A stretch of DNA of 35,754 nucleotides, taken from NCBI RefSeq assembly GCF_011319465.1, contig NZ_RCMB01000011.1, positions 1-35,754 of the forward strand. Direction: 5' to 3'. This DNA is from Candidatus Nitrosotalea sp. TS. GTDB taxonomy: Archaea; Thermoproteota; Nitrososphaeria; Nitrososphaerales; Nitrosopumilaceae. Below the pieces are notes generated by a model, which worked only from the letters and a program-made list of their open reading frames with translations, made no database searches and was not told where the DNA came from. The position numbers and the translations under genes are program-made. The stretch's first letter is position 1; every line of letters begins with the position of its first letter. Shown one piece after another: positions 6,070 to 34,635 of the stretch.

Positions 6070-6732
6070 TTACAAATTTTTCAGCATATCACTAGTTATG
6101 TCTAGTTTTGTAGTTGACCGTGAAACATACACTTCTTTTTCTTTTGTATTTTCTAATATTACCGCACCTGCACCAATGACACATTCACGTGCTATTGTTA
6201 TTCTGTTTCTAACAGTAGAGTTTATACCAAGAAAGCAAAAGGGTTCAACAACCACATTTCCAGCGATAGCAACATGAGATATAATAAAACAGTGATCTTT
6301 TATCACGGTATGATGACTGATTACATTTCCTGTCCAAATTACCACATTGTTTCCCAATGTCACATAAGGCTGTAAAACATTATTTTCAAAAATGAAACAG
6401 TTTTCTCCCATTACAAAGCCATCGTTGATAATAGTAGAAGAATGTATGTAACTTGTTAATTCATATCCTTTACTTTTTGCTTCATCAAATACTCTAGCTC
6501 TTTTTTTATTCATATTAGAATACCCTATTGCGATAAACATTTGAAATTTTGTTGGTGGATAAACAGTTTCAATATTTTCAAATGGAACTACTGGAAGACC
6601 AAACAAGTCATTTTCTTTGATAGCAGATTCATTTGCAGTAAAAGCAACAACATTAAACGATGGATTTTGTTTAAAATACATATACACAATCTCGGCAAAT
6701 CCACCCAGTCCAAAGATAATAATATTTTTCAA
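6070..6732 (-). CDS. NeuD/PglD-family sugar O/N-acetyltransferase
   Basis: About 220 aa. It begins with a Rossmann-like PglD N-terminal domain (MKNIIIFGLGGFAEIVYMYF). A left-handed beta helix of hexapeptide repeats follows (GENCFIFENNVLQPYVTLGN, VVIWTGNVISHHTVIKDHCF, SHVAIAGNV) with a typical cap (VIGAGAVILENTKEKEVYVS). The His in ISHHTVI/SHVAIAG matches the catalytic His of PglD/NeuD, which transfer acetyl from acetyl-CoA to an amino or hydroxyl sugar. It is the first gene of a two-gene operon with the deacetylase, and starts about 90 nt from the 3' end of tRNA-Lys. The likely role is modification of a nucleotide-activated surface sugar. Confidence 0.8.
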   Translation of the reverse strand: MKNIIIFGLGGFAEIVYMYFKQNPSFNVVAFTANESAIKENDLFGLPVVPFENIETVYPPTKFQMFIAIGYSNMNKKRARVFDEAKSKGYELTSYIHSSTIINDGFVMGENCFIFENNVLQPYVTLGNNVVIWTGNVISHHTVIKDHCFIISHVAIAGNVVVEPFCFLGINSTVRNRITIARECVIGAGAVILENTKEKEVYVSRSTTKLDITSDMLKNL

Positions 6733-6819
6733 ATTATTCCACCTAGAGTAATTAATATCAGATACATAATTAAGAGTATTTTGGAATTCATTGAATCTTT
6801 ATGTATAAATATGAAATCT

Positions 6820-6837
6820 AGCGGGTCTAGTGGGATT
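6820..6837. repeat. tRNA-Lys 3' end, identical to 5224-5241
   Basis: This is the 18-nt exact match (agcgggtctagtgggatt) inside and just past the 3' end of tRNA-Lys. It is the tRNA-proximal member of the pair of candidate attachment sequences. Confidence 0.7.
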
Positions 6838-6911
6838 TGAACCCACGACATAGGGATGTCTCCGAAATGATCATAAGAGTCCCTCGCTCTACCTGGCTGA
6901 GCCATAGACCC
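6822..6911 (-). tRNA. tRNA-Lys(CTT) with a 16-nt intron
   Basis: The cloverleaf folds fully. Acceptor GGGTCTA pairs with TAGACCC with discriminator G, the D-stem is GCTC/GAGC, the anticodon stem AGGGA/TCCCT, and the T-arm GTGGG-TTCAAAT-CCCAC. The mature anticodon loop is CTCTTAA, so the anticodon is CTT (Lys). An intron TGATCATTTCGGAGAC (6858-6873) sits at the canonical position after base 37. It makes a proper bulge-helix-bulge: outer helix GGGA/TCCC, 4-bp central helix CTCT/GGAG (one G-U), and 3-nt bulges TA|T and AC|A, cut after the second base. CCA is not encoded. The 3' end is the probable integration site for the sugar-gene segment. Confidence 0.93.
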
Positions 6912-6935
6912 GCAAAATAGCAAACGCTAATGTCG

Positions 6936-6944
6936 TTATTTAAA
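6936..6944 (-). promoter_or_regulatory. TATA box of tRNA-Lys
   Basis: The sequence ttatttaaa (tttaaataa on the coding strand) ends about 25 nt before the tRNA 5' end at 6911, which is normal spacing for an archaeal TATA box. Confidence 0.5.
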
Positions 6945-7043
6945 CTGATTCTGTAAAATTAACGATTCAAGAAAAGATCAAGAGCTAAAGTTATTGTGAA
7001 ATAACATTCTGATTTATTATGTGACTTGGGTAGAACTGACATC

Positions 7044-8212
7044 TTGTTAGTATACAAAGCAATAAGACAGCAGTTTACACCAACCCAAGAACTTTGTTCC
7101 ATGATGAAACATTTCGACAAATGGTAAACGAATGCATCAGAATAGGTCTTGATAACAATGTATCAGCACTGAAAAAATTTCATTAAATCACTACCATGAT
7201 CTCATAAAATATGATATCCAGTCAAAATACAAGCTTCTGCCATGTCACAGGCCTGTGGCAAACTAGCCCAAATGAAGCGTTCAATAAGAGAAGGCCAGAC
7301 TCCAAAATCCCCATACGTACAAAAACCATATCTTGTCTCACGTTACGGCTTTAAGATAAACGGATGCTGCTTTCAATCCCAGTAGGAGATAGAAACTACA
7401 TCCATATTATACTGAATCATCATACACAATGCAATTTCTACAGACAAGTCACTCAAGGTCAAGTCGTTTGTAATCACATCTGATTCAATCAGTCTTGGAA
7501 TACAAAAGGAAGTTGAGGAGATTAAATGTAATAATACCATTGGAATAGACAGAAATCTGCGAAATGTTACGGCAGGAAACTATGATAAAGTAATAATGTA
7601 TAATATGGAAGACCTTCCAAAGATCACGTATCGAACCAAAAAAGTAACATCGTCATTCAAACGCAATGATCATAGGATAAGGCAAAAAATCTATTCAAAA
7701 TTAGGCGATAGAAGAGCAAGAAGAATAAAACAATTCCTAAATCGAGTCTCAAAAGATATTGTAAGTAAAGCAAAAAAATCTTGTTCTCTTATTGTATTGG
7801 AAGATATCAAGGGAATCAGAAAACTCTACAGAAAAGGAACGGTCAAGGAAATAAACGCAGAGTGATGATGAACTCTTGGCCTTTCTATGAGTCGCAAAGA
7901 CAAATACGATACAAATCAGAATGGGAAGGAATCCAGGCGAGATTTGTATCACCAGTACGCACCAACATACTGTATCCAATATACGGGAGTAGAATCCAAG
8001 AGGGCCGGTACCAACATTGTCAATTGTGGTGCATCAGTCGTAAGAGAACAATGGACAGGGATATTGTAGTTGCCATGAACATATCTTACAAGGAGTTGCA
8101 AAGGTTTTGCAATCCTAGTGGGCTTTCAGTTGAAGCAATGAAGGGGAACCTGGGTAAGGCAATGCCAGTAATCCTTCGAGTGGATGGAAGCAAGTTGAGT
8201 TTGAAGGCGTAA
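7044..8212 (+). pseudogene. tnpB: Decayed tnpB (IS200/IS605-type RNA-guided nuclease)
   Basis: Fragments in all three frames align in order with the better-preserved tnpB at 23403-24606. Examples are KAIRQQF, then MVNECIRIGLDNN, then a long intact part from about 7520 (NTIGIDRNLRNVTAGNYDKV, TSSFKRNDHRIRQKIYSKLG, SLIVLEDIKGIRKLY), then RRVMMNSWPFYESQRQIRYK, MDRDIVVAMNIS and PVILRVDGSKLSLKA. RuvC acidic positions (GID, LED, DRD) remain, but there are several stops and frame changes, and the CxxC zinc ribbon is lost. The number of lesions exceeds what sequencing error explains elsewhere in the window. No TnpA or clear terminal repeats were found. It lies 130 nt from the 5' end of tRNA-Lys. Confidence 0.85.
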
Positions 8213-8262
8213 ACCATCAAGCTCGATAAAACCTTTAAACTTGAGTTGAAAAATAAAGTAAT

Positions 8263-8859
8263 TTAGTTTTTGACTGTCTCGATTTGAGAATATTTTTCTA
8301 GTATTTTTGTCAATACTGTAGAAACTGGAGCATTGTTCATTTTCTCTTTTTCTTCCAAGAGTTTTCGGTATGCATCAAGTGTGATGTATACTGGAATTGA
8401 ACCGTTACCTTCCAATAATCCTCTAACTTTGTACAAGGCAGTTTCCATTCCCTTCTCAGCTGTCTTTGCAAACTTGATCTTGTTGAGAATTCCGCCTAGA
8501 GGACCAAATGGCATTTCATAGTCTACTGTCATGGTAACACGGGTTGATTTCTCACCTAGTTCCTTGAACTCGACTGAAATATTCCACGCTTTGAATGGTC
8601 CCTTGATCATTTTAGCGGCGATCTTTTGTTCTTGTACAAATTCTGTTGTCTCACAGTCCCACTCTAGTCTCTTGCCATCAAAGTCACCTATTACTCTAAA
8701 GGTTGTACCTACGCCCATTCCTGCTTTTACATCCATAGGAACTACTGTCATTCCTACTCGCTCTTCGAACTGGTCAGAAATGTGCTCTGGCCTTGCGAAA
8801 TATGTAAAAACATTCACGGTCTTTTCTTTGATGTCAATTGATTTGCTGACATGAGTCAT
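8263..8859 (-). CDS. SRPBCC-fold protein with a ribbon-helix-helix-like C-terminus
   Basis: Residues ~1-145 look like a START/polyketide-cyclase (SRPBCC) domain. The pattern is an N-terminal strand, RPEHISDQFEERVG, WDCETTEFVQEQKIAAKMIK, then FKAWNISVEFKELGEKSTRV and a long C-terminal helix with FGPLGGILNKIKFAKTAEKG. Such domains bind hydrophobic ligands. The last ~40 residues (IPVYITLDAYRKLLEEKEKM and the StvltkileKYS helix) resemble a small ribbon-helix-helix DNA-binding fold, an unusual partner. I choose ATG 8859 because a ctttaaatc box lies about 30 nt upstream; a TTG seven codons earlier would be too close to it. Ligand and target unknown. Confidence 0.65.
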   Translation of the reverse strand: MTHVSKSIDIKEKTVNVFTYFARPEHISDQFEERVGMTVVPMDVKAGMGVGTTFRVIGDFDGKRLEWDCETTEFVQEQKIAAKMIKGPFKAWNISVEFKELGEKSTRVTMTVDYEMPFGPLGGILNKIKFAKTAEKGMETALYKVRGLLEGNGSIPVYITLDAYRKLLEEKEKMNNAPVSTVLTKILEKYSQIETVKN

Positions 8860-9021
8860 ACAGTGGGCAATCTTTTCCAACTTGATTTAAAGCTTTTGTT
8901 AATTTCCAACGATCGTAAGAGCTGTAGGAATAACTTGGGCATTTTTTATCAGATACTGATTTGCATCTTTGTGGCTATGAAGATCTAATATTATATTAAA
9001 GAAAGCGGCCAGTAAAAGGAT

Positions 9022-9585
9022 ATGGTTAACTTTCGATTTCCAGTTGCCATGTTTTCCTTACTGCTAGTTCTCTCTCCAATGATACACTATGCAGGCGCTC
9101 ATGAAAATCTAAACTCGGGTGACGAATCCATAGGAAATTATGAAGTACAGGTAGCAACAGATCCTGAGATCCCGTCTGCAAACCAGCCTTTCAAGCTAAG
9201 TTTTCGAATTCTAAATTATCAGTCTGCTTCTAACCTGCTCAATTCATTTAACACCAAGCTAAGCGAGGTCGATCACTTTAGGATGGGAGTTAGAATTTAC
9301 TACAACAATGAGCTAGTGTCGACAATTCCAGTGCAGGACTTCAAAGGCGGGGAGTGGTCTACCAGCTACATATTTCATGAATCTGGGAACCATATCATGT
9401 TCGTTGATCTCTACGATGTAGGGCCTGGCGGACAGCCATTGACGTTTATTTACAATATCAGCGTGCTTGACGTGTTTGGCCCACTGTTCCAGTATATCAT
9501 CTCGGCAGGAGGCATAGCGTGCTTTGTCTTGCTTGTATGGGTAATAATTACAAATAAGAAAAAAAAGGAAAAACCTAAGGCTTGA
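9022..9585 (+). CDS. Secreted, membrane-anchored protein near the terminal oxidase genes
   Basis: The N-terminal signal peptide is FPVAMFSLLLVLSPMIHYAG with cleavage near AHA. A beta-sandwich-like extracytoplasmic domain follows (YEVQVATDPEIPSANQPFKL, FRMGVRIYYNNELV, STSYIFHESGNHIMFVDLYD). A C-terminal membrane helix (YIISAGGIACFVLLVWVIIT) ends in a run of lysines. The DPxxPxxxxPFxLxF pattern resembles YtkA-like/copper-handling or Ig-like domains found near oxidases, but no metal site is evident. A TATA box (ttatattaaa, 8991-9000) lies ~25 nt upstream of ATG 9022. It is convergent with heme A synthase. Function unknown. Confidence 0.65.
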   Translation: MVNFRFPVAMFSLLLVLSPMIHYAGAHENLNSGDESIGNYEVQVATDPEIPSANQPFKLSFRILNYQSASNLLNSFNTKLSEVDHFRMGVRIYYNNELVSTIPVQDFKGGEWSTSYIFHESGNHIMFVDLYDVGPGGQPLTFIYNISVLDVFGPLFQYIISAGGIACFVLLVWVIITNKKKKEKPKA

Positions 9586-21939: not shown

Positions 21940-23235
21940 CTAATTTGCATTCAAAAATTCCAGCACATTGCCATAGTCCCATGGTCCGCACCCTGTGTTC
22001 TGTATCTTTATGATTCCCTTTTGGCGCATCTGTTCAATTACATACACTGCAAACGGCAGTGCACCTGTAGCGCCAGGCGAGTTGTAGTTTAGGATGTGAG
22101 TTGACTTTGTTCCCTCTTTTATGACCGCATCTGGGACAAACTTGCCTGAGCTGTCAATTACCGATGCTCTCACCCCTGCAGTGCCTCGGGTATGGAATTT
22201 TGACGGAATCACCTTGGGGAGAAACTCCCTTACTCGATTTATCATTGCATTTTTTGATACAGAAGAGAGAAACTCGCTTGTCGCAAGCGAGAGAAATTTG
22301 GAGTCAAACAGCATCTTTGCTGCGCCAGACGACAGCATCTCGACAATCTTTGACGGAAACTCTTTGATGTTTTCTGTGAAATTATACCCGTATGGACTGA
22401 AGACCGGCACTGCATTTGGCCCCACCTCGCATCGCCCGTCATGTCGCACAATCCAGTGCGGATCCAGGAATGGATACTCGGGATGTTTTGGGACAGAATA
22501 TACTGAGACTCGGGTTAGGTTGCTGTAGATTTTGTCAGCCTGCCAGTATTCTCCGCGAAAGTGAATGTCTGTAAGATCTTGTGCAGTACCCATTGCGTGA
22601 GCAATATCAATTGACATTCCACCTGCTGCGTTTATGATATGGTCTGTCTGTATGGTACCAGAATTTGTTTTAATCTCAAGAAATTCTTTTTTGTCCTGTA
22701 TTTTCTCAGATCTTGTGTTTAGCAAAAAACTTGCACCGCTTTGCTTTGCGTCCTCCATCAGAGATTTGGTAAACTTGCCAAAGTCTACTGATGCGTCCTT
22801 GGTACAAAATATTGCCTTTTGGCAGTGCACCTCAGGCTCTTGTCTTGACACCTCGGAGCTGTCTAAAAATGTCATTTCGTCTTTTTTTAATCCGTTCTGC
22901 TCTCCCCATGACAGATACTTTTCAAGCCTCTTTGTTCCCTGCTCGTCAAGTGACACTTCCAAGACTCCGTCTTTTTTGAACGGCAAACTCTTTTGTTTTG
23001 CGTACGTCTCCCACATCTCAAACCCTAGTGCTGCGGCTTTTGCAAATAGCCTCTTTTTTTGTGGGTCGTAGAGAAACGGCGCGTGAACCTTTCCGGTGTT
23101 TCTTGAACTGGTATGGAATGCAACCTCTGGTGCTTGTTCTAGTACCAGAACTTTCTTGTCTGTCACATGGGATAGGAAATATCCAAGCGAAGTTCCTAAA
23201 ATTCCCGCACCAATTATCGTAATGTCAGACTTCAC
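21940..23235 (-). CDS. FAD-dependent oxidoreductase, L-2-hydroxyglutarate oxidase-like
   Basis: 431 aa, DAO superfamily. The N-terminal dinucleotide-binding fold is ITIIGAGILGTSLGYFLSHV, followed by a VLVLEQAPEVAFHTSSRNTG stretch typical of LhgO/GlpD-type enzymes. A second FAD contact is HIINAAGGMSIDIAHAMG, and the C-terminus has YNSPGATGALPFA. The substrate is probably a 2-hydroxyacid or similar. The LhgO resemblance is from the SSRNTGKVHAPFLYDP segment and overall length; the actual substrate is not determinable. The gene is intact. An insertion element begins less than 100 nt upstream of its start, so its promoter may be compressed or altered. Confidence 0.75.
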   Translation of the reverse strand: MKSDITIIGAGILGTSLGYFLSHVTDKKVLVLEQAPEVAFHTSSRNTGKVHAPFLYDPQKKRLFAKAAALGFEMWETYAKQKSLPFKKDGVLEVSLDEQGTKRLEKYLSWGEQNGLKKDEMTFLDSSEVSRQEPEVHCQKAIFCTKDASVDFGKFTKSLMEDAKQSGASFLLNTRSEKIQDKKEFLEIKTNSGTIQTDHIINAAGGMSIDIAHAMGTAQDLTDIHFRGEYWQADKIYSNLTRVSVYSVPKHPEYPFLDPHWIVRHDGRCEVGPNAVPVFSPYGYNFTENIKEFPSKIVEMLSSGAAKMLFDSKFLSLATSEFLSSVSKNAMINRVREFLPKVIPSKFHTRGTAGVRASVIDSSGKFVPDAVIKEGTKSTHILNYNSPGATGALPFAVYVIEQMRQKGIIKIQNTGCGPWDYGNVLEFLNAN

Positions 23236-23331
23236 AACTAGATTCTTGCCACTAAGGGATCCAATAGATGTTTTGATTGAATTGCCATATTATGATACCA
23301 TCACCTGAACATGATCAGTTTTGCTACATAT

Positions 23332-23356
23332 GGCTCTGTTGCGTTGCCGGGTGATA
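23332..23356 (+). repeat. Left terminal inverted repeat
   Basis: This 25-bp sequence starts ggctctgttgcgttg and ends ccgggtgata. It is complementary to 24608-24632 with two mismatches (positions 10 and 15). Confidence 0.85.
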
Positions 23357-23402
23357 TTGACATTACCAGTACTATAATTCTAATAAAAAAAAGCACGATC
23401 AG

Positions 23403-24606
23403 TTGAAGGCAATCAAGTCTGTCAGGCAATCATGCGTTCCAGATTCACACATACTTGATTTTCTTGAAACTTTTCGAGATATGGTAAATCACTGTATCAG
23501 AATTGGCCTTAAAAACGACACACACGCATTAAAGCGATTGTCGGTATTATCATACAGGGAACTGGCACAGTACGACATTCTGTCATACTACAAACTTTGT
23601 GCCATATCAAAGGCTGCCGGAATTCTATCAAACAGAAGACAATCTATCAAACGAGGAATCAACACAAAGAACCCATACCTGAAAAAGCCAATACTGATAT
23701 CATGCTACGGATTCAAGCTTGAAGGTAACATTTTCAAGATACCGCTTGGAGACACAATATTTTGAGATTCTATTGAATCATCATGCAAGAGAGATACTAT
23801 GTAACCATGAAAATAATTCCACGTTCAAGGTAAACTCCTTTGTTCTTACTCCAGATCACCTATCAATATCATATTCAAAAGATGTACCAGAGGTACAATG
23901 TAAAAACACGACAGGGATTGACAGAAATCTCAGAAACGTCACGGTAGGAGACTGCAACCAAGTGGTTCAGTATGACATTGCAAAGGCAGTCAGGATTGCA
24001 GAGAATACAAAATCCATCGTATCGTCATTTAAGAGAAACGATCACAGAATCAGAAAGAAACTGTATTCCAAGTATGGTACAAGAAGAAAAAATAGAGTAA
24101 ATCAGATGCTGCACAAGGTCTCAAAGGATATAGTGCAACATGCAGTACAAAGAAAACATGCCCTAGTCTTTGAAGATATCAGATACATCAGAAAGATGTA
24201 TCAGAAAGGAAACTGGCAGGGAAAAAAGCGTCGAGGCACCATGAATGGATGGTCGTTTTCTGAAATCAAATGCCAGATAGAATACAAGTCAAGATGGAGT
24301 GGAATTCCAATAATCCAGTTATCAAAATCAGACACTAGAGGAACATCAACACTATGTCCCAGATGCGGAAAGAGACTCCAAGACAAAGGGGCATGGAACG
24401 ATCCCATCCGTAAAAGAGAACTCTGGTGTGATACATGTCAGAGATGGCAAGACAGGGATGTGATAGCTGTCATGAACCAGTCTCTGCGGGGGCTGCCAAG
24501 GCTTGGCAGTTCTAAAGGCGATGCAGGTGAAGCAATGAAGTGGAATGTGGATAACGCACTGCCGCTAATCCTTAGAGTCGATGCATCGAAGTTACAGTCC
24601 GTGTGA
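23403..24606 (+). CDS. tnpB: TnpB RNA-guided nuclease (one frame change)
   Basis: TnpB is the RuvC-type, omega-RNA-guided DNA nuclease of IS605-like elements. The N-terminal wedge region (ETFRDMVNHCIRIGL, SYYKLCAISKAAGIL) is followed by RuvC motif I (TGIDRNLRNVTVGD), RuvC II (ALVFEDIRYIRKMY), the zinc ribbon (CPRCGKRL ... CDTC) and RuvC III (WQDRDVIAVMNQSL). All three acidic residues and four zinc cysteines are present, so the nuclease may be active. The frame moves by one base near 23755 (IPLGD then YFEILLNHH); dropping one base in gacacaata restores it. The start at TTG 23403 is tentative. The stop lies 1 nt before the right inverted repeat, so an omega-RNA would have to overlap the gene's 3' end and the repeat. 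Confidence 0.88.
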
Positions 24607-24607
24607 T

Positions 24608-24632
24608 TATCACCCGGAAACGTAACAGAGCC
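24608..24632 (-). repeat. Right terminal inverted repeat
   Basis: This begins tatcacccgg and ends cgtaacagagcc. Its reverse complement matches the left end at 23 of 25 positions, and it is followed directly by the duplicated ctacatat. Confidence 0.85.
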
Positions 24633-24703
24633 CTACATATAGAATGAATTTCAAATATGATTCTGTGGAAAAATTTAATTTGTTTCATGCATACTTGGAT
24701 GCA

Positions 24704-25153
24704 ATGAAGTTTGCCATACTTGGGTGCGTGATGCTGCTTGTGGCATCTTCCAGTCCTGCATGGGCTGCGTTTGATACTGACGGAAATTATTACTGCAATA
24801 GTTCCAACCTTCCACTGGAGGAGACGATCTACAAGTCATCTGTAGCCAAGATAGACAGTGATCTGAATTCATATCTCTCGCTGAATCCAAGTGCGACGGA
24901 CCAGGAACTGCATAGCTACCTAATATCTGATCCTGAAGTCGCACAGCCATATTCGATCATGGAGCAATCAAAGGCATGTCTCCAGTCAAATGGGGTCAGC
25001 CCCAATGCGATTGTATCACCAAGCTCGCTATTTCTTGAAGTCTTTGCAGCGCCAGAATTTGGAATAGTATCAGGGCTTGTGTTTGGCATTACACTTGCAA
25101 GTGTTGTTGTGCTTCAAAATAAAATTAACAAGTCCATACTTTTAAAAATCTAG
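24704..25153 (+). CDS. Secreted protein with C-terminal membrane helix, unknown function
   Basis: 149 aa from ATG 24704. The signal peptide is MKFAILGCVMLLVASSSPAW with cleavage after AWA. The extracytoplasmic part has two Cys (YYCNSS, ACLQS), probably a disulfide, and several Ser/Asn-rich loops. A C-terminal helix (FGIVSGLVFGITLASVVVLQ) ends with a basic tail. The upstream ATG at 24644 would place 20 polar residues before the signal; a TATA-like aaatttaat (24669-24677) about 27 nt before 24704 supports the shorter form. The tnpB element inserted about 65 nt upstream of this start, just beyond the promoter. Its stop overlaps the convergent gene at CTAG. Confidence 0.6.
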   Translation: MKFAILGCVMLLVASSSPAWAAFDTDGNYYCNSSNLPLEETIYKSSVAKIDSDLNSYLSLNPSATDQELHSYLISDPEVAQPYSIMEQSKACLQSNGVSPNAIVSPSSLFLEVFAAPEFGIVSGLVFGITLASVVVLQNKINKSILLKI

Positions 25154-26474: not shown

Positions 26475-26924
26475 CTATTTCTTTTTGGCACGCCTAAACC
26501 TATTGAGTAGATCTTTTGATGATATAGTCTCAAGATATCGACTAGCTTTCTTTAGCTCTTTGTCGTGTGTTACAAGATATCGTGCACCTTTTGCAAGTCC
26601 GGTGGCAATTATGATAGCATCAGGCAATCTAAGACCTGTATCTGCACTGATCCTTGCCGCTGCATCAGATATAGGCACATCAAGCCCGGCAATTACAAAA
26701 CCCTTGGTAGAAATCAAATGGGAAAGCAGTTCCTCTTTACCCCTTTTGTCTCCGTGTGAATAGTATTCGGTACACAATTCCGCAATTGAGATTACTGATA
26801 TGATCGCTTGTATGGAACCATCTTCAACTGCATCCAATACCTGCAAAGAGTGTATAGAATGCTGTTCGCCAGTATTCTTAGCATTCAATAAGATGTTGGT
26901 ATCAAGTATTGCAGTTATTACCAT
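26475..26924 (-). CDS. vapC: VapC-type PIN-domain toxin
   Basis: 149 aa, PIN nuclease fold. The four acidic metal-site residues are visible: D8 (AILDTNILLN), E49 (SIAELCTEYY), D102 (LRLPDAIIIA) and D121 (VTHDKEL). PIN toxins cleave tRNA or rRNA when freed from the antitoxin. The gene overlaps the upstream AbrB-type antitoxin by 7 nt, so translation is coupled. The C-terminal basic tail (RFRRAKKK) could contact RNA. Nothing is missing relative to the family. Confidence 0.88.
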   Translation of the reverse strand: MVITAILDTNILLNAKNTGEQHSIHSLQVLDAVEDGSIQAIISVISIAELCTEYYSHGDKRGKEELLSHLISTKGFVIAGLDVPISDAAARISADTGLRLPDAIIIATGLAKGARYLVTHDKELKKASRYLETISSKDLLNRFRRAKKK

Positions 26925-32192: not shown

Positions 32193-32208
32193 ATGCATGT
32201 ACATGCAT
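32193..32208. promoter_or_regulatory. 16-bp perfect palindrome, operator of the plus-strand VapBC
   Basis: The sequence atgcatgtacatgcat is a perfect palindrome. It lies directly after a TATA-like cttaaat and 11 nt before ATG 32220, ideal for autorepression by the antitoxin. Confidence 0.6.
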
Positions 32209-32219
32209 TGTATTTCAAG

Positions 32220-32453
32220 ATGGGAACAACTACAATCTCACTTAACGACGAAGCATACAGGGTGCTCAAGGCCCAGAAAAGAGAAGGTGAGTCTTTCTCA
32301 GATCTTGTACTGCGCAAGTTTGGCAAGGGCAATCCCGCAGCAATCCTGGCCTATCTTGAGGAGACAAAGCCAAACATTGAACTTGCAGAATCTACCCGGA
32401 AATCAAGCGAAGAGTTACGCAAGAAGCTAAAGCTAGCAAAGGTCAAGCTGTAG
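32220..32453 (+). CDS. vapB: VapB-type antitoxin
   Basis: 77 aa from ATG 32220: TTTISLNDEAYRVLKAQKRE then GESFSDLVLRKFGKGNPAAI. This is the archaeal VapB-like family whose N-terminal ITL-x-E/D-AY-x-x-L pattern forms a small DNA-binding fold. The C-terminal part is charged and helical. The start is the ATG with the TATA box about 30 nt upstream, not the one at 32193. It is 2 nt before the toxin gene. Confidence 0.75.
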   Translation: MGTTTISLNDEAYRVLKAQKREGESFSDLVLRKFGKGNPAAILAYLEETKPNIELAESTRKSSEELRKKLKLAKVKL

Positions 32454-32455
32454 AC

Positions 32456-32845
32456 ATGGTCTGCGCCGAGACCAGTTTTATCATAGCACTTGAGAGACGT
32501 GAGCATAGCGCAATTGAAAAGATGCGAGAACTTGAAGAGAGTGGAGAGACTGTTTATATCACCGCCATTACCGTTGCCGAGATATACCACGGAGCCTATA
32601 CCTCAAAGGACAGGACAAGAGCGTTAAAGGATTCTGAGGAACTGCTAAATCGCTTTGCTGTACTAAATCTTGACTATGAATCTAGCAGAATATGGGGCCA
32701 GTTGGCAACCTCTATGAAATCAAATACTATAGGAGACAGAGATCTCTTCATTGCAAGCATTGCAATTGCAAATAGGCAGACCCTCATAACAAAGAACAAA
32801 AAACATTTTGAACGAGTAACCAGCCTAGATGTAGAAGACTGGTAA
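32456..32845 (+). CDS. vapC: VapC-type PIN-domain toxin with Glu in the first acidic position
   Basis: 129 aa PIN fold: MVCAETSFIIALERRE, ITVAEIYHGAYTS (E42), IGDRDLFIASIA (D94/D96) and LITKNKKHFERV. The first catalytic residue, almost always Asp in LDTSFLI, is Glu5 here, and the late Asp is not obvious. It may still bind metal, or be a weak or inactive nuclease. The gene starts 2 nt after the antitoxin stop. It sits as an opposite-strand insert between rmlD and rmlA. Confidence 0.8.
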   Translation: MVCAETSFIIALERREHSAIEKMRELEESGETVYITAITVAEIYHGAYTSKDRTRALKDSEELLNRFAVLNLDYESSRIWGQLATSMKSNTIGDRDLFIASIAIANRQTLITKNKKHFERVTSLDVEDW

Positions 32846-33857: not shown

Positions 33858-34312
33858 TTACCTGAATATCTCATCCTTGTTCTTTATTACAGTATGTTCC
33901 TCCTTTTCAATACTGTTAACAAGTTGCCTTGCCTCAATTCTTGTGACTATACATCCTTGATTGCAAGCCTCAATATTCTTGGCAGCGAAAAATAACTCAT
34001 ATTGTCTTCCCTGCACAACCTATGTACGATCTTTTCGTTGCTTGCAAGCGGAATATTCCGGTTCTTTGCTATTACATAGCATTCCTTTTCTCCCTTGTCA
34101 AGTTCACTGTGTGCATACTTTAGATCCTTTAACTCGCCAGTTGTTAGTTGAGCAAACTCAGGTCCAAGCTTTTTGAGATCTATTTTTCCTTCTGCAAGTT
34201 CAACCTTTACTGATGGTGATACAATAATGGCTTCAAAAAGTTCATTTAATATATCAAGCCTATCAATTCTTGAAAAAATGCTCAGTATATCAGTATCAGC
34301 AACAAGCTTCAT
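33858..34312 (-). CDS. PIN-domain toxin (one frame change)
   Basis: The first frame gives LVADTDILSIFSRIDRLDIL, ELDKGEKECYVIAKNRNIPL and ASNEKIVHRLC, a PIN-like nuclease of the DUF3368-like kind, then stops at 33947. Shifting one base near 33955 continues CIVTRIEARQLVNSIEKEEH then TVIKNKDEIFR to a stop at 33858, giving about 150 aa. The start overlaps the antitoxin stop (ATGA). Acidic positions D6/D8 and the LDKGEKE motif are present. One missing T explains the break. Confidence 0.65.
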
Positions 34313-34635
34313 CCATACCTGCTCTTGATCTTTTCAATTGCGCTATCCATCTTTGACGCGCTTTCTGCTTCTATTATCCTCTTGATGCCGTACTCTTTTA
34401 GTCTCTCCTTGAATTCTAGTATGCTAACATCTGCAATCTCGGCAGCTTTTCCAAGAGTGACCTCGCCCTTTTTGTACAATCCGACTGCAGCTGCAAGTCT
34501 TAGGTTCTTTTTATTACTCAACATGTACCTAAGTGCATCCTTGACAACATCGGACTTGCTTGAATAATACCCTGATTTGACTAGCTCGTCTATCTCCTTT
34601 TTGACTATTTCTGGCAGGTTGTAGCTTGAAGGCAT
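34309..34635 (-). CDS. Antitoxin with ribbon-helix-helix and UPF0175-like helical part
   Basis: 108 aa. The N-terminal LPEIVKKEIDELVKSGYYSS then KSDVVKDALRYML is a clear CopG/ParD-type ribbon-helix-helix. The second half (AAVGLYKKGEVTLGKAAEIA then DVSILEFKERLKEYGI) is a UPF0175-like helical module resembling a helix-turn-helix. It overlaps the PIN gene by 4 nt. Upstream, ataactat occurs twice with a half-dozen-plus spacing (34649-34675), a possible operator. The module lies between rmlB and rmlD. Confidence 0.75.
   Translation of the reverse strand: MPSSYNLPEIVKKEIDELVKSGYYSSKSDVVKDALRYMLSNKKNLRLAAAVGLYKKGEVTLGKAAEIADVSILEFKERLKEYGIKRIIEAESASKMDSAIEKIKSRYG

Follow-up and report, generated by a model that had tools for sequence, protein, structure and literature searches.

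A tnpB gene between IS6-type ends in Nitrosopumilaceae, and a flank motif suggesting that the nuclease influences which insertions persist

Why transposons carry the RNA-guided nuclease TnpB is debated. In known TnpB systems the guide of the omega-RNA is the sequence past the right end of the element, and a target-adjacent motif (TAM) precedes the matching target. Within the portions available of two papers (PMC3627910, PMC10711439), prokaryotic TnpB is placed in IS200/IS605 and IS607 insertion sequences, capture by DDE transposons is described for the eukaryotic Fanzors, and the target duplication is predicted to form part of the Fanzor RNA scaffold (PMC10711439). For IS200/IS605 elements in plasmids, the accessible part of PMC11870625 presents TnpB as a gene drive and the TAM as the preferred insertion motif of the transposase; a TAM at the insertion site is therefore uninformative about the nuclease in that setting. 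Accounts of the IS6 family, as far as their partial texts extend, include one member with a passenger gene and two miniature inverted-repeat transposable elements (MITEs), and the word tnpB does not occur in these texts (PMC7986276, PMC6807381). Here we analyse a 35,754-nt stretch of Candidatus Nitrosotalea sp. TS (contig NZ_RCMB01000011.1), the whole of which we call the window and in whose numbering positions are given, and a 1301-bp element within it in which a tnpB gene lies between IS6-type inverted ends. The locations of this and similar elements, in ammonia oxidisers and related archaea, suggest that the nuclease influences which insertions persist.

The element spans window positions 23332-24632 (Table 1). 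Its 25-bp inverted ends share 23 of 25 bases, and identical 8-mers, CTACATAT, stand on either side, with tnpB, on the + strand, as the sole gene between the repeats; its stop codon ends at 24606, 1 nt ahead of the right repeat, so the architecture given in a preliminary description of this DNA holds on every one of these points. The ends start GG with CTGT, which together with an 8-bp target duplication is the pattern of IS6 elements (terminal repeat consensus from the available parts of PMC7986276 and PMC6807381), and IS6-type elements of related archaea are similarly ended, in keeping with the IS6 likeness first proposed. No IS6-type DDE transposase lies inside, so the element is at most a non-autonomous IS6 relative. 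It departs from IS200/IS605 sequences, which have no inverted ends, no duplication and a Y1 transposase, and from IS607 sequences, which use a serine recombinase and also have neither inverted ends nor duplication; the earlier statement that both families lack such an architecture agrees with PMC3627910 as far as the part consulted goes.

The 8-bp target duplication is real, as empty sites at two loci prove. The assembly of the window genome (24 contigs, 71% complete) mixes near-identical strains, and its contig 23 matches both flanks at 98-99% identity, lacks the element and has a single CTACATAT, reading ...ATCAGTTTTG CTACATAT AGAATGAATTTC.... The closest relative of the element (G262:C54:20466-21767) is 83% identical end to end, has an open tnpB and the same boundaries, and is flanked by CGTATTAA twice, at a different site from that in the window. 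This second locus is element-free in genomes G316 and G248, where it reads TTTTCTTG CGTATTAA TCC; alignments of G356 and G000 likewise run across it with no element, and with changes in these bases. The empty-site comparison called for by the preliminary description thus came out positive at both loci, and its concern that homologous copies might lack these boundaries is answered by the G262 copy. We left two end-like sites, G000:C10 and G316:C227, out of the insertion count, as the same flank occurs in both and the second end was not found. As a separate observation, contig 23 contains some 150-165 bp (locus L325, about 1700-1867) that are absent from the window, 10-20 bp left of the insertion (window about 23305-23317).

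The window tnpB is not one open frame. Its N- and C-terminal parts lie in different frames, with a net 2-bp difference from the open G262 gene, and to judge from the sequence the gene is broken or mis-assembled at that point. The C-terminal part matches the TNB domain PF07282. TnpB profile scores are 53.5 bits for TIGR01766 (cut-off 32) and 90 bits for NCBIfam NF040570, under the cut-off of 100. TnpB proteins are recognised by a RuvC D-E-D triad and a C4 zinc ribbon, and in nine aligned TnpBs the D, E, D and four cysteines are invariant; we take the invariant D, E and D to belong to the three RuvC motifs and to be the catalytic residues. The window copy has the RuvC and zinc-ribbon motifs despite the frame break. 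That the whole arrangement reflects chance repeats or an assembly artefact might be suspected from the mixed strains and the broken frame; this is extremely improbable, given that other genomes hold independent copies bounded in the same way and that empty sites exist, and we reject chance on the empty sites together with the right-end counts that follow.

Similar elements are widespread. DNA matches were found in 53 of 400 genomes of the order and, by protein search, tnpB matches in 32 of 250 genomes of the family; of 117 tnpB loci from a scan of named genomes, 80 were retained, and their records bear the titles Nitrosotenuis (among them a record of Nitrosotenuis chungbukensis MY2), Nitrosotalea, Nitrososphaera, Nitrosopumilaceae, Thaumarchaeota, Crenarchaeota and Bathyarchaeota and a few others. 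We surveyed 129 distinct near-complete tnpB genes with sufficient flank for the right-end motif CAGA[A/G]CC at -10 to +120 bp of the tnpB end, with the same motif on the opposite strand as control: it was present in 84 of 129 (control 2 of 129). An exact left end stood within 200 bp of 41 of these genes (control 1), and 36 had both ends. A strict search of 300 loci, which required an exact 8-bp duplication, ends of type [GA][GA][TCA][TAC]CTG on both sides and 12/20 or more inverted matches, returned 49 unique elements. Of these, 20 carry tnpB and 26 an IS6 transposase; 3 have neither gene and none has both. Elements that carry tnpB between IS6-type ends are common in related archaea, and ends of the same kind occur with and without a DDE transposase, as had been proposed for checking, in separate elements.

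An IS6-like DDE system probably moves the tnpB elements in trans; we infer such a mover because, in the same archaeal family, elements with an IS6-type transposase are bounded by similar ends and by 8-bp duplications as well. Of 250 family genomes, 70 encode IS6-type DDE transposases (PF13610), and these are enriched with tnpB (19 of 32 tnpB-matched genomes vs 51 of 218 others, p 8e-5). One tested protein, of 377 aa and with a SWIM zinc finger, reached 131.7 bits against the NCBIfam IS6 model (cut-off 125). Past the shared first 7 bases, tnpB ends match their best IS6 end at a mean of 12.8/17 positions, compared with 8.6 for shuffled tails, and the closest pair of a tnpB and an IS6 element (L138 with L298) agrees at 23/24. 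The suggestion that tnpB had been captured by a non-autonomous DDE-type element of the IS6 kind therefore gains support from duplications and empty sites, from the similar IS6 ends and from co-occurrence, with the particular transposase a presumed one. In the closed genome G165, which has seven tnpB matches among the matches listed, two of three IS6 hits were checked and neither led to paired ends flanked by a duplication.

An ordinary IS200/IS605 or IS607 derivative, tnpB-only and IS1341-like, with incidental inverted ends, is very improbable as an account of the window element. Its protein is indeed a TnpB, Y1 transposases are present in 10 of 250 family genomes (6 above the cut-off), and tnpB-only elements of the IS200/IS605 type are common according to the portion consulted of PMC3627910; the same portion gives neither family 8-bp duplications or 25-bp inverted ends such as those found here with empty sites, and no Y1 transposase was found in the genome of the window or in the closed genome G165. 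We reject the plain IS200/IS605 reading, which the empty sites contradict.

The evidence on the nuclease comes from the bases next to the insertions. With a guide that begins directly past the right repeat, the target in an empty allele would start with the duplicated bases, so a TAM would have to lie just outside the left duplication. At that place, read in the direction of tnpB, T-[A/G] stands in 17 of the 20 strict tnpB elements and in 0 of the 26 IS6 elements (Fisher 6.5e-10), and the longer TT-[A/G] in 13 of 20 vs 0 of 26 (Fisher 7.6e-7). The boundary search was blind to these bases. The IS6 controls are partly dependent, six of them (L065, L241, L242, L243, L245, L258) having similar duplications, L292 and L296 sharing one flank and L254 being listed twice; collapsed by hand to 19 sites, 14 of which do not abut another end, they still gave 0 of 19 (2.6e-8) and 0 of 14 (9.8e-7). 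Nine of the 26 have a flank like the end of another element, and the remainder also lack the motif (0 of 17). At 21 other offsets T-[A/G] occurs in 0-8 of the 20 tnpB elements.

Further loci gave the same picture. A looser search of 170 loci, many of them overlapping, yielded 41 unique boundary calls, with T-[A/G] in 29 of the 35 that have an IS6-like end and in 1 of the 6 decoys that do not; this single motif-bearing decoy, L108, may be a genuine element whose ends have decayed. A later set of 40 tnpB loci, drawn from a search of the class, contributed four elements new to the analysis, all four with the motif, while three more rows were elements already counted; strict tnpB sites then stood at 19 of 22. 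The T-[A/G] bases are already present in the empty sites, both that of the window and that of the G262 element in G316 and G248. The 8-bp duplications share no motif (at most 0.14 bit per position) and so are able to serve as a variable guide, and the sequence predicted as guide in the window stands after TTTTG in the empty site. T-[A/G] matches the TAM prediction in place, side and register, and we assign it a putative role as a TAM, NTTR-like. NTTR resembles the protospacer-adjacent motifs of some Cas12f enzymes.

Two other origins of the motif were weighed. The particular IS6-like transposases behind the tnpB elements might themselves prefer such targets, with TnpB a mere passenger. IS6 elements do have biases of their own: of the 17 whose flank is not another end, 8 have A-T beyond the duplication, so the flank is not without influence on their transposases, and in one group the duplications resemble TGTTTTAG; moreover, the IS6 elements whose ends are nearest by subtype to those of tnpB elements (L298, L299) offer just two sites. 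However, with two similar inverted ends to work on, a DDE enzyme would be expected to leave a mirrored motif to the right of the right duplication, where it was found in 3 of 20, the chance level, and the motif is common to tnpB elements of differing end subtypes and absent from 26 of 26 IS6 elements, L298 and L299 included. We therefore regard a transposase preference as unlikely. Alternatively, TAM-bound TnpB might direct an IS6-like transposase to insert beside it, a form of RNA-nuclease-assisted DDE transposition in which the motif reflects the choice of site and not later selection. Such targeting predicts the same exact register and one-sidedness, and the motif does pre-exist in the empty sites; nothing in the data separates it from retention. 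We know of no TnpB that directs transposase insertion, which counts against it, and we hold it to be rather improbable. On the sequence evidence, the flank motif is best accounted for by TnpB-dependent retention or, less probably, by TAM-directed insertion.

A candidate omega-RNA is suggested by constraint at the right side of the element. The window and G262 elements, at 83% identity overall, are 96% identical over element positions 1151-1250, at the tnpB end. At fourfold silent sites in five disjoint pairs, agreement was 71 of 82 in the last 36 codons vs 280 of 499 elsewhere (p 4e-8, sites pooled); across all 11 pairs none was lower at the tnpB end and one was level (6/9 vs 61/92). The right terminal repeat is also better kept than the left, with 3 vs 24 mismatches in 34 tnpB elements and 14 to 0 when counted by element (p 1e-4), and no such skew exists in 26 IS6 elements (11 vs 9). 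This fits a dual role of the right repeat as the presumed 3' end of the RNA scaffold. The preliminary description had remarked that an omega-RNA would have to read through the transposon end; the geometry stands, but it is no objection, since TnpB guide RNAs work in this way, and both the flank motif and the constraint at silent sites agree with it. Single hairpins, for example near 24503-24525, are suggestive only. The genome of the window, G325 and G132 belong to one genus, and in G132 we observe a 413-bp deletion derivative (L035 1829-2241) with both ends, its own duplication, CTAAAATA, and a retained tnpB 3' block, perhaps an omega-RNA-only element.

We consider it likely that these are IS6-type tnpB elements moved in trans, whose right-end omega-RNA takes its guide from the flank and whose TnpB, by cutting empty alleles, retains insertions that lie next to a TAM; the mover, the RNA, the cleavage and the retention are parts that we propose. 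An IS6-like transposase acting in trans would recognise the inverted ends, insert the element and duplicate 8 bp. The omega-RNA would arise from the right side, spanning the tnpB end and the right repeat, and transcription beyond the right end would turn the flank, duplication first, into guide, so that each insertion would reprogram the guide. In an element-free allele, the sequence matching the guide would stand directly behind the bases that precede the left duplication, and where those bases form a TAM (NTTR-like), TnpB would cut the empty allele. The element would gain whether the occupied copy served as repair template or the cut copy was lost. Over time, insertions beside a TAM would persist and others would be lost. 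The window copy would have been built in this way, with its tnpB now frame-broken.

Several observations weigh against this account. The exact right-end motif is absent from 45 of the 129 tnpB genes, and three strict elements (L145, L159, L239) lack T-[A/G]; the flank bias of the IS6 elements, described above, belongs here as well. With respect to the mover, tnpB and a transposase occur together in 0 of the 49 bounded elements, and no IS6 transposase was found in 13 of the 32 tnpB-matched genomes, that of the window (71% complete) included, many of these genomes being incomplete. Y1 transposases are also enriched with tnpB (6 of 32 vs 4 of 218 genomes), so that some tnpB genes there may belong to IS200/IS605. 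With respect to the RNA, the strict 20 tnpB elements by themselves give 1 vs 6 mismatches in right and left ends (p 0.06). When 21 right-end sequences were folded to a consensus, no pairs resulted, for which a gappy alignment is the probable cause, and folds upstream of a conserved motif were not significant (mean z -0.26 over 25 sequences, 5 below -1), with anchor placement that varied. A search of Rfam over 23200-24800 returned no match.

Table 1. Features of the tnpB element and its flanks in the window; functional roles are predicted.
Feature	Position	Strand	Remarks
TTTG, putative TAM	23320..23323	+	abuts outer edge of left duplication; role suggested by the T-[A/G] flank motif
Left copy of target duplication	23324..23331		CTACATAT; one copy in empty site G000:C23 (L325)
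Left terminal inverted repeat	23332..23356		23/25 vs right repeat
tnpB, N-terminal part	23403..23765	+	first open frame; similarity to G262 TnpB starts earlier, at 23364
tnpB, C-terminal part, RuvC and zinc-ribbon region	23755..24606	+	other frame, 23719-24606; PF07282; 80% identity to G262 TnpB
DNA-level conserved block, putative omega-RNA scaffold	24482..24581	+	overlaps tnpB 3' end; 96% to G262
Right terminal inverted repeat	24608..24632		probably doubles as 3' end of omega-RNA scaffold
Right copy of target duplication	24633..24640		CTACATAT
Predicted guide, 20 nt from right end	24633..24652	+	starts with duplication; predicted from flank-motif register and known TnpB systems

Elsewhere in the window, a second and degenerate tnpB lies at 7053-8203, with several stops and 38-46% identity to G262 TnpB; no IS6-like ends matching at 11/15 or better surround this remnant within 6501-9500. 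The window also holds small genes that resemble toxin-antitoxin modules, a VapB-type gene with a PIN gene (32193-32845), a UPF0175-type gene (34309-34635) and a single PIN gene (26475-26924). A plasmid search gave no DNA match to the element, a phage search only distant TnpBs (23-28% identity), and a search of viral contigs no confirmed relative.

The IS6-type elements of these archaea show features of their own. One 3.4-kb element (L246 964-4375, genome G346), with duplication TAAATTAG, holds a transposase and open reading frames (255 and 230 aa) that match nothing in Pfam. In six others (L065, L241, L245, L250, L261, L268) the left flank ends like the terminal repeat of another element, which puts two ends opposite one another on either side of the 8-bp duplication in an array-like arrangement. 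The six elements with similar duplications (TGTTTTAG, TGTTCTAG, TGTTTCGA, TGTTTTGA), named among the controls above, come from several genomes, and two or more of them share the flank AAGAGTAT, pointing to either a target preference or orthologous sites. Two different bounded elements, L043 1501-2627 (G387), with no tnpB or IS6 hit, and L259 2516-6225 (G241), with an IS6 hit, have the same flank and the same duplication, TTTTTTAA.

These elements combine a nuclease family and a type of ends that are each known, and they do so with a new flank footprint. In the literature searched, which included few subscription papers, we recognised no prokaryotic TnpB joined with an IS6 or other DDE element, and its novelty in print is not certain. 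The mover here is apparently a DDE enzyme and IS6 elements of the same archaeal family are free of the motif, which is nevertheless found at the tnpB insertions. Nature has thus set up an experiment from which any influence of TnpB on the persistence of elements may be readable in genomes. It suggests that the nuclease is also of use to a mover from a different class. The family is a compact archaeal one with a predicted TAM and guide start, both directly testable.

Of the described systems, Fanzor1/Fanzor2*, of a group marked by altered RuvC signatures and a clade of its own, are alike in that a TnpB relative sits between inverted ends and target duplications, in elements that often lack a transposase of their own, and the archaeal elements may be the prokaryotic counterpart to that capture. 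They differ in being archaeal, with IS6-type ends and 8-bp duplications of variable sequence, and in the part that the duplication would play: scaffold in Fanzors, whereas here it has no shared sequence and, by the register of the flank motif, would be the start of the guide. With IS200/IS605 and IS607 elements that carry tnpB, tnpB-only ones included, they share the TnpB nuclease, a putative right-end omega-RNA and a TAM-like motif in the left flank; unlike those, they have inverted ends and an 8-bp duplication between the TAM-like motif and the element, and they contain neither a Y1 nor a serine transposase. IS6 sequences and their MITEs resemble them in ends starting GG with CTGT, in 8-bp duplications and in the presence of IS6-type DDE transposases in related genomes, but the elements described here have no transposase inside and carry tnpB as their sole gene.
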